Notes under the pieces: model-generated
Told to the model about the DNA's origin: nothing
Databases searched by the model: none
What the model saw: the letters and a program-made list of their open reading frames with translations, nothing else
Translations under genes and position numbers: made by a program
Assembly: GCA_021297895.1 (NCBI GenBank)
Contig: JAJTHN010000029.1
Coordinates: forward strand, 1-64,000
Direction: 5' to 3'
DNA length: 64,000 nucleotides
Source of the DNA: Phycisphaeraceae bacterium
GTDB taxonomy: Bacteria; Planctomycetota; Phycisphaerae; Phycisphaerales; UBA1924
Shown: one piece after another, positions 41,273-46,707 of the stretch
Layout of the letters: each line of letters begins with the position of its first letter
How positions within the stretch are numbered: position 1 is the first letter of the stretch

Positions 41273-41342
41273 TCGGGACCAAAAAGTCACCCCCCGCCTC
41301 GGAGTGGACTCGACGCGGGAAGCCGATACAGTTCCGGTGCCT

Positions 41343-41413
41343 TGGGGATTGGTGTAACGGTAGCACGACTGACTCTGACTCAGTTAGTCTAGGTTCAAAT
41401 CCTAGATCCCCAG
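41343..41413 (+). tRNA. tRNA-Gln (anticodon CTG)
   Basis: Acceptor TGGGGAT pairs with ATCCCCA, discriminator G; D arm with GGTGTAACGGTAGCA; anticodon stem ACTGA/TCAGT with loop CTCTGAC, giving anticodon CTG; T arm CTAGG-TTCAAAT-CCTAG. The leading U and short length (71 nt) are usual for tRNA-Gln. Confidence 0.95.
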
Positions 41414-41472
41414 TTTTCTCCGACGCCCCGCACCCGCGGCGTTCGCCCCTCAAAGGCCCATCAGTTGAACCT

Positions 41473-41494
41473 CGCGGCGGATTCTTCCGCCGCG
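41473..41494. repeat. 9-bp stem hairpin downstream of tRNA-Gln
   Basis: CGCGGCGGA-TTCT-TCCGCCGCG, nine perfect pairs and a four-base loop. There is no T-run after it. It could be a terminator-like structure for the tRNA or a leader structure. Confidence 0.65.
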
Positions 41495-41650
41495 AATGTG
41501 GCTGTGATCCATCGGTCCGCCACGCGTCCGTCCGAGAATCGTCCCCGGCCCAACGGCTCTGCGGCCTGGCCGCTGTTCGCACAGGTTCCCCGGCGGTGGA
41601 ACCGCTGTCGCGACCACGGAGAAGCGTTGGTACCAGCTCTGAATGACGAT

Positions 41651-41663
41651 ACACTTGAAGTGT
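41651..41663. promoter_or_regulatory. inverted repeat ACACTT-G-AAGTGT upstream of the Cys-rich genes
   Basis: A perfect 6+1+6 palindrome, 58 bp before the ATG of the Cys-rich gene at 41721. Its place and symmetry fit an operator for a dimeric, possibly metal-sensing, regulator; no regulator gene is near, so this is only a suggestion. Confidence 0.4.
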
Positions 41664-41720
41664 CTCGCGGCGGCATCGACTTTGGCGATCAAGCCGCTGA
41701 GTACCTTTTCTGAACGCACC

Positions 41721-42218
41721 ATGATTCTTCGCGTGCTCATGTCGCTGCTCATGATCGTCCAGCCGCTGGCGGCTGGCGAGTGGTGCCGCTGCATGGCCCG
41801 CGTTTCGTCCGCGATGGTGGCCGCGGGACCGTGCGTGTCCGAGGCCGAAGGCCGGAACTGTGCCGACGCCGACGACTGCTGCCCAATCGAGTCGAGCGTC
41901 GTCGCGGACCCATGCTGTTCGGCACTCTCGGACACCGGGCCAGCCCACGATCAGATCGATCAAGGTTGCTGCTCTCCATGGGACGACTGTTCGTCCTGCG
42001 AGACCTGCGGCCTGCTGCCCGTTGATGAGTCGAAGATACCGGCATTGCCGGTGCACACGCCTTCGATGGCGGATCTCGTGCCGAACCCCTCGGACCTGCC
42101 GACGGGTGTGGTGATGGAGGTCGCGCCGCCGACGGTCCCGAACTTGCCAAACCTGGCGCGGGCGTTGCCCCCGCCTGCTCCTCCCGATCGGGCGGCGCTT
42201 TCTGTTTGGGTGATCTGA
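41721..42218 (+). CDS. exported Cys-rich protein of unknown function
   Basis: 165 residues from the ATG at 41721, with a signal peptide (MILRVLMSLLMIVQPLAAG). The mature region up to about residue 100 holds many cysteines in clusters: EWCRC, DDCCPIE, DPCCSA, GCCSPWDDCSSCETCG. The C-terminal 65 residues are Pro-rich and end in DRAALSVWVI. The Cys pairs suggest metal binding or a disulfide-rich exported protein. No family recognised. A second, even more Cys-rich exported peptide follows 199 bp downstream, and a palindrome lies upstream. Confidence 0.65.
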   Translation: MILRVLMSLLMIVQPLAAGEWCRCMARVSSAMVAAGPCVSEAEGRNCADADDCCPIESSVVADPCCSALSDTGPAHDQIDQGCCSPWDDCSSCETCGLLPVDESKIPALPVHTPSMADLVPNPSDLPTGVVMEVAPPTVPNLPNLARALPPPAPPDRAALSVWVI

Positions 42219-42417
42219 TTCGAAAGTGCGTTCTGCCACCGCCGGAGCATGCATGATGCCCCCGGCGGGGCTGTTGCTCGCGTCGACCGTGCCACGTTCT
42301 CTCGGCACGCTCGGCGTGCAAGTCCATCAAGCGTGTCTTTCGATTGACAGTCATCCAAACCCTCCCGGGCGGATCGCATCGCGATACACCCCGGGCCAGA
42401 TCTCAAGGATCCATCAC

Positions 42418-42657
42418 ATGTTGACCATGAAGCTCATCGCCCTCATGTCCGCCGCCATGCTCTCGTTCTCCGGCGTCGGCTCTTCCACGACCGCCGTGGC
42501 GGCCAATGGCTGCGGCGCCGGTTGCTCCTGCTCGTGCGCCTGCTGCGCCTCGTCGTGCTGCTGCTGCGGCGGCTGCTGCGGCTGCTGCTCGGGCTCGAGC
42601 TGCTGCTGTGACGACTGCACCTGCTGCGACGCCGGTTGCGGCTGCTGCGCCAAGTAG
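42418..42657 (+). CDS. exported 79-residue Cys-rich (metallothionein-like) peptide
   Basis: 79 residues, start ATG at 42418 with AAGGA about nine bases upstream. A signal-peptide-like N-terminus (MLTMKLIALMSAAMLSFSG to about TAVAA) is followed by about 50 residues of which 23 are Cys, with only Gly, Ser, Ala, Asp, Asn, Thr and Lys between them (for example CSCSCACC, CCCC, CCGCC, CCCDDCTCCDAGCGCC). Such composition suits binding of soft metal ions, but known bacterial metallothioneins (SmtA/BmtA) are cytoplasmic and not like this. It could instead be a disulfide-rich structural protein. A strong hairpin terminator follows at 42694. Confidence 0.7.
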   Translation: MLTMKLIALMSAAMLSFSGVGSSTTAVAANGCGAGCSCSCACCASSCCCCGGCCGCCSGSSCCCDDCTCCDAGCGCCAK

Positions 42658-42693
42658 TCGCGACACATCAGGGCATTGAGCCCGGAAATGATC

Positions 42694-42734
42694 GACGGGC
42701 GGCGCACCAAGGTGCGCCGCCCGTCTTCGATTTT
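42694..42734. terminator. bidirectional hairpin terminator after the Cys-rich peptide
   Basis: GACGGGCGGCGCAC-CAAG-GTGCGCCGCCCGTC, 14 perfect pairs, followed by TTCGATTTT. It sits between convergent genes (stops at 42657 and 42770) and probably serves both. Confidence 0.8.
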
Positions 42735-42769
42735 GCCTCAGATCAACATCTGCCTTGCACCGGCCCCGA

Positions 42770-44458
42770 TTATCGCTCGGTCGGCGTCGGCACCGGCGTA
42801 ACGGGCGAACCTTCAAGCGTCCCCGGGTTCACCGGCCCGCTCGGAGTCGAACTCCGCACGGGCTGAAGGTTCACGACATCCACCCGCGTCGGCACGACGA
42901 TCATCGCGTTCATCGAGTCCTCGAATCGGCTCTCGCCCTGAATGCCGACGATCGCACCGAGCTTCGACTGCAGGTCCAGCTTCGGATCCGGCACCAGATA
43001 GCCGATCGTGCGGCCCGTGCCGGGCTCCGGGCTCTGGATGCGATACATCAGCGGCAGGCGCTGGCCGTCGTACACAACCGACGGGATCAGCCGCCCGATG
43101 TACGCGTACACGCGCGAGTTGCTCAGTTCCGTGAGCTGCTGGCCGATGCGTTGCTGCTGGGTGTCGAGCGTGCGGCTGGTTTCCTGACGGCTGCGCATCG
43201 CTTCGCGCACCTGCACGCGAAGCTCCATCGCCTCAACGAACTTACCCAGCCGACGGCGAAGGTTCTCATCACCCGGATTGCCGCCGAGCGTGCCGATGTA
43301 GTTCCGGAACTCCGTGATGGCCGAGTCCAACTCGGCTTCCATCAGCGGCTGCTGACGCACGCGCTCGTACTGCTGGACGAGAACATCCACCGGGTTGGGC
43401 TTGGGAGGTGCCGGCGGCGCGGGTGGTGTGGGCGGTGTCGTGGCCACAGGGGCAGCGGGCGCTTCGCCCGCCGCGCCGGGTGTTGCGGGGACGAACGCCG
43501 GTGCCGAAGGTGCGGCGGTGCCAGTGCCGGTTCGATCGCCCGTCGGGGGCACAACGATCTCGACCGGTGCCGAGCCCGCGGGTGCCGCCGGCGACGGGGT
43601 GGTCGGCGTGCTCGCGGGTTCTGCCGGAGGCGTCGTGGCCGCGGGAGCGGTGGGGGCCGTTGTGGCGGCGGGGGCCGCGGTGGGGGCCGCGGTGGGGGCC
43701 GCGGTGGGGGCCGAAGGAGTTGTGGCGGGGGTCGCGTTCGCGCCCGATGCCGTGCTGGCGGTCCCGAGGAACTGGGCCGACTCCTCCGGCGAGGCTCGAC
43801 GGGTGTTCCCCGCGGCGATAAAGCCCCGGGCCTCGCTCGGCACCGCGACGATGTACGCCGAAATTCGGCCCCCATCATCCTTGAGGGTGTCGAGCACCTT
43901 GAACTCCGTACCGGAGGCCAGCGGTGCCTGCAACAACGGGAAGAAACTGCCACGCTCACCGATCTCAACGTTCAGCGCTCGCAGCGTGCTGGGCTTGGTC
44001 AGTCGCACGGTCGTGTTGTCCGCGCTCGGGCTGCACTCATCGGGACGGACCAGCGCCCGGCCTCCCGCCGGGTAACTGACACGCAGCCAGTTGCCGCTCT
44101 CGCCGTCGACACGCAGCATCGTGTTCACCGGCACGTTGGCAACGGGGTAGTACAGCGTCGCATCGCCCGCGCGCAGCGTCGTCGCCGTCGTAACGACCGC
44201 GACATACGGATCGACGGGGCGTGCCTGGGCCAGCGCGCTGCGGCTGAAGACCGTCGCCGCCAGCGTCGCGCCGACGATCACCGTCGGCATCGACCAGCAC
44301 GCCGCGGCACACATGCTCGCCATCGCCAACACGCGGGCCGAGCCCGCCACGCCGCGGCGGGCGGGCCGACCGTGCTTGGCGTTGCTGCTCGCGCTCGTGA
44401 CGCCGTTCGAGAAGTTCGTGGTGGGCTTTGATTCGCTGACCGTGCTCTGCGTGCGCAT
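42770..44458 (-). CDS. exported SH3-like domain protein with Ala/Pro/Thr linker
   Basis: 562 residues. The ATG at 44458 has GGAG six bases upstream and is preferred to one at 44569 without a site. A long basic lead and a hydrophobic signal segment (about 45-80, ending SRSALAQA) precede an SH3b-like region (VTTATTLRAGDATLYYPVAN, LRVDGESGNWLRVSYPAGG). Then comes about 130 residues of Ala/Pro/Thr, partly coded by a 12-bp tandem repeat (43660-43715). The C-terminal 200 residues are helical (QQYERVRQQPLMEAELDSAI, MELRVQVREAMRSRQET) and end in a strand region. SH3b domains often bind peptidoglycan; no enzyme motif is seen. Confidence 0.72.
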   Translation of the reverse strand: MRTQSTVSESKPTTNFSNGVTSASSNAKHGRPARRGVAGSARVLAMASMCAAACWSMPTVIVGATLAATVFSRSALAQARPVDPYVAVVTTATTLRAGDATLYYPVANVPVNTMLRVDGESGNWLRVSYPAGGRALVRPDECSPSADNTTVRLTKPSTLRALNVEIGERGSFFPLLQAPLASGTEFKVLDTLKDDGGRISAYIVAVPSEARGFIAAGNTRRASPEESAQFLGTASTASGANATPATTPSAPTAAPTAAPTAAPAATTAPTAPAATTPPAEPASTPTTPSPAAPAGSAPVEIVVPPTGDRTGTGTAAPSAPAFVPATPGAAGEAPAAPVATTPPTPPAPPAPPKPNPVDVLVQQYERVRQQPLMEAELDSAITEFRNYIGTLGGNPGDENLRRRLGKFVEAMELRVQVREAMRSRQETSRTLDTQQQRIGQQLTELSNSRVYAYIGRLIPSVVYDGQRLPLMYRIQSPEPGTGRTIGYLVPDPKLDLQSKLGAIVGIQGESRFEDSMNAMIVVPTRVDVVNLQPVRSSTPSGPVNPGTLEGSPVTPVPTPTER

Positions 44459-44680
44459 CGCGTTCTCCAAGATTTCGTGCGTCGTCCCGGTGTGCCCGGG
44501 TGCGGGCGGTGCTGCGGGCTTCCCCGTCGCCCCGGACCCGGTCGCGGCGTTCCGTGCCGTTATGTCCATGGTAGGAGTGTCGGCCCGACACGCCCGCCCG
44601 GTCGAGCATTTACCCACTTCGCCCGGCGATTCCGCCCGGATTCACCGCCCGGCCTCTCGGCAGCCCGGCAACAATGTCGC

Positions 44681-45929: not shown

Positions 45930-46505
45930 TCAGGACGCGAACGCCGACGGCAGGCCGAGGCCGCGACGCGTCGTTGAAAGCTGTCCGGTGTGCCAGCCGA
46001 TGTGCCACGCAGTGCGATGCGCCGCGTCCAGCCGCGTCTTGGCGATTCCGTGCGACTCGCCCATCACCGGCTGGTGAAGCTGATCGTCGGTCAGATGGGC
46101 CAGCGCCTCGTTCATGCGCGTAATGCTGGCCTGATAGGCCCGCATCACGTCCTCAAACTTCGGGTACATCTTCGGGTCGTGGGCCGGCTTGCTGCCCATC
46201 CCGAAGAGCGCTTCCCAATCCTTCGGACACACGCCCGGCTCGCCGGTCATGAGCCAGTGGAACCAGTCCGCGCTGGTCGCCAGGTGGCCGACCGTCCACA
46301 TCAGGCTCTGATCATGCGGAAACGGAATCGCGCACTGCTTATCCGCGGGCCAGTTCTTCATCATCGCGTGCACCATCCCGTCGGCGAACTTCAGCAGTTC
46401 GATCGCATGATGCGCATCGCCGAAGGTGTGCGGGTGCTTCTTGTCGTGGCCGCCGGCGTGGGCGGCGTGTGCGGCATGGTCGTTCGGAGTGTGCGTGTGG
46501 CTCAT
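45930..46505 (-). CDS. DinB-family protein with His-rich N-terminus
   Basis: 191 residues. The first 33 residues are His-rich (MSHTHTPNDHAAHAAHAGGH, then DKKHPHTFGDAHH), likely able to bind metal. The rest is a DinB-type four-helix bundle: KFADGMVHAMMKNWPADK, QSLMWTVGHLATSADWFHWL with a metal-ligand His, and HRTAWHIGWHTGQLSTTR with two more. Bacterial DinB proteins are metal-dependent thiol transferases or have no known role. Its stop lies 64 bp from the convergent Sua5 stop. No good ribosome binding site is seen before the ATG at 46505. Confidence 0.78.
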   Translation of the reverse strand: MSHTHTPNDHAAHAAHAGGHDKKHPHTFGDAHHAIELLKFADGMVHAMMKNWPADKQCAIPFPHDQSLMWTVGHLATSADWFHWLMTGEPGVCPKDWEALFGMGSKPAHDPKMYPKFEDVMRAYQASITRMNEALAHLTDDQLHQPVMGESHGIAKTRLDAAHRTAWHIGWHTGQLSTTRRGLGLPSAFAS

Positions 46506-46707
46506 GACAGGAGGGTACCGCCGCGATTCCGCGACGCGATGTCCGGAACGGCAAACCGGATCGACTTGATCAAAATCCCCGTTCTCCAGGGAGATCGCGT
46601 GCGGCCGTGCGTCGTGGCATTCCGCTTCGACATCCGCGATACTGCTCGGCGAACGAACCCGGCTCATCCACGCCGCGCGTCACTTTCGCCTCAACGCCCG
46701 TCACCCC

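Follow-up and report, generated by a model that had tools for sequence, protein, structure and literature searches.

The window analysed here, a stretch of 64,000 nucleotides, carries a real and unusual gene, P0001, which is known from one genome only, probably that of a Phycisphaera-type planctomycete to judge by this finding and by what its relatives are, and our analysis gives an about even chance that its product is an extracytoplasmic metallothionein-like thiolate peptide. The gene, the parts of its product and its expression signals are the following:

42405 to 42409, plus strand: Shine-Dalgarno-like AAGGA, 8 nt 5' of the P0001 ATG, recognised in the sequence
42418 to 42657, plus strand: P0001, gene of the Cys-rich exported peptide (79 aa, 23 Cys), from the ORF and coding-strand tests
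42418 to 42501, plus strand: Sec-type signal peptide, MLTMKLIALMSAAMLSFSGVGSSTTAVA, with probable cleavage between AVA and ANG, from the sequence and a rule-based test
42502 to 42654, plus strand: mature P0001 peptide, ANGCGAGCSCSCACCASSCCCCGGCCGCCSGSSCCCDDCTCCDAGCGCCAK, from the translation
42694 to 42725, plus strand: intrinsic terminator, a 14-bp stem with a T-rich tail, 37 nt past the stop codon

The ORF consists of 79 codons plus the stop, and the coordinates, frame and Cys count given by an earlier note on this DNA are exact. The full product is MLTMKLIALMSAAMLSFSGVGSSTTAVA followed by ANGCGAGCSCSCACCASSCCCCGGCCGCCSGSSCCCDDCTCCDAGCGCCAK, with all 23 Cys located C-terminal to the signal peptide; they make up 23 of the final 50 residues, or 45% of a 51-residue mature peptide if cleavage falls right after AVA, and are arranged in CC, CCC and CCCC runs. 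Apart from Cys, the mature peptide contains exclusively G, S, A, D, T, N and K, with neither aromatics nor branched aliphatics, a count that bears out the description of the intervening residues as tiny or polar. The frame stays open in the 5' direction as far as a GTG at 42226; the ATG at 42418 is favoured as the start because the Shine-Dalgarno-like element and the signal peptide are found there. The AAGGA lies inside a weak 5-bp hairpin, in a region folding no better than its shuffles, while the terminator is strong (-34.8 kcal/mol, z -6.2). As regards export, P0001 passes a strict signal-peptide rule that was also passed by 11 of 58,167 random ATG starts, one of which has a Shine-Dalgarno element as well; these random-start figures are optimistic, since the rule was written after the P0001 peptide had been seen. 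The ORF, its coding strand, the signal-peptide features, the terminator and the lineage-specific location described below are thus all computed, and the claim of a real exported gene with its own terminator, whose product has 23 Cys in 50 residues, is upheld by the signal-peptide rule, the Cys density, the strand test and the terminator fold.

The Cys density is far above chance. The highest count in any 50-aa ORF stretch was 11 Cys in 10 Mb of simulated sequence (Markov-5, trained on the window) and 12 in 525 kb of real DNA from related genomes, compared with 23 in P0001. Since most genomic ORFs with Cys runs are the antisense of CAG/CAA Gln tracts, the strand had to be tested as well. According to this rival reading, the Cys frame is untranslated, being either the antisense of a Gln-rich ORF (42414 to 42710, minus strand) or a non-coding TGC-rich tract. 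In fact, the antisense frame is open, has normal GC1/2/3 and a total codon score better than that of the sense frame. Moreover, a scan of genome contigs with the Cys spacing of P0001 returned at least 125 ORFs, and the matches listed look like poly-TGC or antisense poly-Gln, while the matches opened from a CC-pattern scan of 163 family genomes were antisense poly-Gln or other frames with Trp, stops or bulky residues. The best look-alike of P0001 (L268, in genome G084) was rejected: it runs antisense to a TatA-like protein, on the minus strand at about 2300 to 2900 of L268, with a long tail rich in Gln, Pro, Tyr and Gly whose antisense mimics a Cys-rich peptide.

Against the antisense reading stands the third base of the TG- codons. 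Were the minus strand coding, this base could be G (Trp) or A (stop) in the sense frame; all 23 TG- codons of P0001 are TGC or TGT, with zero Trp and zero stops, an outcome with log10 P = -6.2 under the codon usage of the window and log10 P = -3.9 when the count is limited to neighbours other than Gln/His codons. Nearly all antisense poly-Gln controls of comparable Cys count contain Trp or stops. The synonymous codon score of the Cys half favours the sense strand (16.4 vs 8.0), both strands scoring similarly in the signal-peptide half. Furthermore, the signal peptide, the Shine-Dalgarno-like element and the terminator are all on the sense strand, whereas the antisense ORF begins within the terminator and has no Shine-Dalgarno element. 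Taken together, the sense reading is held with high confidence, and an untranslated Cys frame is scarcely probable. The Trp/stop test tells genuine Cys-rich genes apart from antisense poly-Gln tracts, a common artefact.

HMMER and tblastn searches for homologues of P0001 covered overlapping sets of planctomycete genomes (61 from relatives, 397 from the class and 343 from the phylum), and none was found; peptide words gave no match in genome contigs, viral contigs and plasmids yielded nothing either, and the weak matches that were opened proved to be unrelated ORFs. P0001 has no Pfam, NCBIfam or PHROGs match and hit none of the metallothionein families. The HMMER filters are severe on such a composition, and in a control phmmer recovered 0 of 30 shuffled peptides of P0001 composition, so these negatives exclude homologues of the same residue order only; peptides of the same composition and unrelated order could exist unseen. 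Standard homology searches are therefore blind to this class of peptides, and others may be missed. The earlier note had named a lack of homologues with a conserved Cys pattern as counting against its proposal, and this lack is what was found in the genomes, viral contigs and plasmids searched, so that conservation gives P0001 no support. Separately, a DinB-family protein with a short terminal Cys/Gly tail, EGGCGPGCGCASK, was observed (L114, G114).

The genomic surroundings of P0001 comprise the following features:

41342 to 41414, plus strand: tRNA-Gln(CTG), bordering the lineage-specific segment on the left
41415 to 42769, no strand assigned: segment with P0003 and P0001, 1,355 bp, single copy in the genome
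41721 to 42218, plus strand: P0003, an exported-looking Cys-rich orphan (165 aa, 13 Cys, CSSCETC), with an alternative start at 41643
42219 to 42417, plus strand: structured spacer between P0003 and P0001, 199 nt
42770 to 44617, minus strand: P0004, an SH3-like conserved protein, convergent, forming the right border and outside the system

The tRNA-Gln and P0004 are 1,355 bp apart here. Among the relatives examined, tRNA-Gln adjoins P0004 only in G084 and G035, at a distance of about 65-130 bp; in G032, P0004 is followed by a different gene, NrfA-like by eye, and no tRNA is present. Because of these short junctions, P0003 and P0001 are placed in a lineage-specific segment of ~1.2 kb, and the pair has therefore either been acquired in this lineage or been kept by it alone. 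The GC content of the segment is 65% (67% in the window). Neither a tRNA attachment-site repeat at its right end nor a second copy in this genome was found, the tRNA was the only Rfam element at the locus, and no recognised metal gene occurs among the neighbours scanned (DUF885, prolyl oligopeptidase, DinB and HGSNAT-like). P0004 occurs in 58 of the 61 family genomes and represents a conserved uncharacterised family, weakly SH3-like on its N-terminal side and with a conserved C-terminal domain, its Pfam matches being marginal. The DinB-family protein (45930 to 46667 of the window, minus strand) has near its N-terminus a His-rich stretch, HTHTPNDHAAHAAHAGGHDKKHPH, possibly metal-binding. A role for P0001 as a poly-Cys attenuator leader is excluded by the geometry, the next gene being convergent and a strong terminator lying between, 37 nt downstream of P0001. 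The orphan status of P0001 and its location in a lineage-specific segment beside tRNA-Gln would also suit a young gene, arisen de novo or laterally gained, that is expressed without a selected function; such a functionless gene is very unlikely, a full set of gene signals together with an extreme and coherent composition being hard to reach without selection.

The preferred reading of P0001 as a metallothionein-like peptide agrees with its size, its export and a composition made up of Cys and tiny or polar residues. According to it, the product would be exported by Sec and its signal peptide removed, releasing a flexible peptide of ~5 kDa in which 23 thiols are set among Gly, Ser, Ala and Asp. 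These thiols would bind soft metal ions outside the cytoplasm in thiolate clusters, most likely Cu(I), or else Zn/Cd, and the peptide would act like a metallothionein sited in the envelope. The presence of a second Cys-rich exported-looking protein (P0003) 5' of P0001 counts in favour of this reading, while the three acidic residues and one Lys of the peptide, and the lack of a homologue, family match or metal-gene neighbour in the scans, count against it. The earlier note had suggested a metal-binding or cross-linked structural peptide; of this proposal the real, exported, terminator-bounded gene has been confirmed, whereas the processing, metal binding, metal choice and biological role are those that we infer, since the searches turned up no homologue and the neighbours checked include no metal gene.

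Once exported, the same thiols may become oxidised, in which case disulfides would be likelier than metal binding. The peptide might then act like a miniature keratin-associated protein, its inter-chain disulfides cross-linking a protein layer in the envelope or outside the cell, a role for which its export and its CC, CCC and CCCC runs are suited. Structural proteins of the keratin-associated type are typified by Pro, Tyr and Arg, which P0001 lacks; moreover, it is very small, single copy and devoid of a repeat module, and, unlike a basic part of the wall, it was found in none of the relatives searched. Older descriptions of planctomycete walls as disulfide-bonded (PMC2754498) make oxidative cross-linking the chief rival, judged possible but unlikely.

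The metal-trap reading could be extended, and is not exclusive, with a role for P0003. This protein has a hydrophobic N-terminus, a CSSCETC motif and a Pro-rich end, RALPPPAPPDRAALSVWVI, in which RALPPPAPPDR is found; RALPPPAPP lies no more than ~20 aa from the C-terminus, and the last 15 residues include PP. Its signal peptide is probable, yet fails the strict rule, its codon usage is merely neutral and no convincing homologue emerged from the searches. CutF and CruR, which are DUF2946 proteins, sense copper as nascent chains for the gene that follows (PMC9973294, PMC9426467), and the family is defined by CxxC and RAPP about 45 residues apart (PMC9426467). In architecture P0003 appears to resemble them, with a probable signal peptide, a CxxC, a C-terminus rich in Pro, a long structured spacer (42219 to 42430, z -2.8, with 1 of 200 shuffles folding as well) and a downstream exported gene on the same strand. 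It differs in that it shows no match to PF11162 at E<=10 and an hhalign probability of 1% against six planctomycete DUF2946 proteins, and in that, CSSC/CETC being present, it has RALPP instead of RAPP, a spacing of 50-53 residues instead of 45, no CxxxC, and a downstream gene that is no known copper gene. Membership of DUF2946 is not supported by profile, alignment, motif or spacing. Planctomycetota do have DUF2946 proteins, with CxxC and RAPP or RGPP ends (L288, L292, L293, L301, L305 and L306), and 14 of the 392 genomes of the phylum reach the cut-off. In the extended reading P0003 would be, in the manner of CutF and CruR, a nascent exported chain, and its Cys motif and Pro-rich C-terminus would control, by way of the spacer, the passage of translation or transcription into P0001. 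The similar architecture and the occurrence of true DUF2946 proteins in the phylum suggest such a role; given the failed family tests, the divergent motif and spacing and the neutral codon usage, it is rather unlikely. Quite unlikely, too, is the full picture of a lineage-specific two-gene cassette in which P0003, as a nascent-chain metal sensor, would switch on P0001, a metal sponge of the periplasm or the cell exterior, controlled co-translationally and denser in Cys than the metallothioneins known to us.

A Sec-exported peptide with 45% Cys would represent a compact metal-capture module, and would mean that bacteria have thiolate metal traps (or disulfide cross-linkers) beyond the cytoplasm too. 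In being short, very Cys-rich (23/51) and free of aromatics in its mature part, P0001 agrees with the compositional side of the broad definition of a metallothionein, which also asks for stoichiometric metal-thiolate binding, and departs from that of the bacterial ones, cytoplasmic and without a signal peptide, by passing the signal-peptide rule. Bacterial metallothioneins have fewer Cys than P0001 and are treated as cytoplasmic. SmtA/BmtA, PmtA and MymT share with it the small size, the abundance of Cys and a putative thiolate cluster, whereas they have no signal peptide and P0001 has one, and no Pfam match. Csp1, a Cys-rich copper-storage protein outside the cytoplasm, is a folded four-helix bundle exported by Tat; P0001 would resemble it as a Cys-rich, putative copper store in the same location, with a Sec-type signal instead and no helix-forming pattern. 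Keratin-associated (ultra-high-sulfur) proteins are likewise CC-rich and Gly/Ser-rich but, unlike P0001, eukaryotic, intracellular, larger and built of repeats. PmtA is explicitly described as having no signal peptide although it is seen on the surface (PMC11237414). Judged by sequence, the nearest composition among the known proteins checked is that of the Neurospora crassa Cu-metallothionein (PDB 1t2y), short, without aromatics, with a C-terminal Lys and a nearly matching Gly/Ser/Ala/Asp/Asn/Lys/Cys set; the likeness is compositional only, 1t2y having 25 aa, 7 Cys and CxC motifs and P0001 51 aa, 23 Cys, CC/CCC/CCCC runs and a signal peptide.
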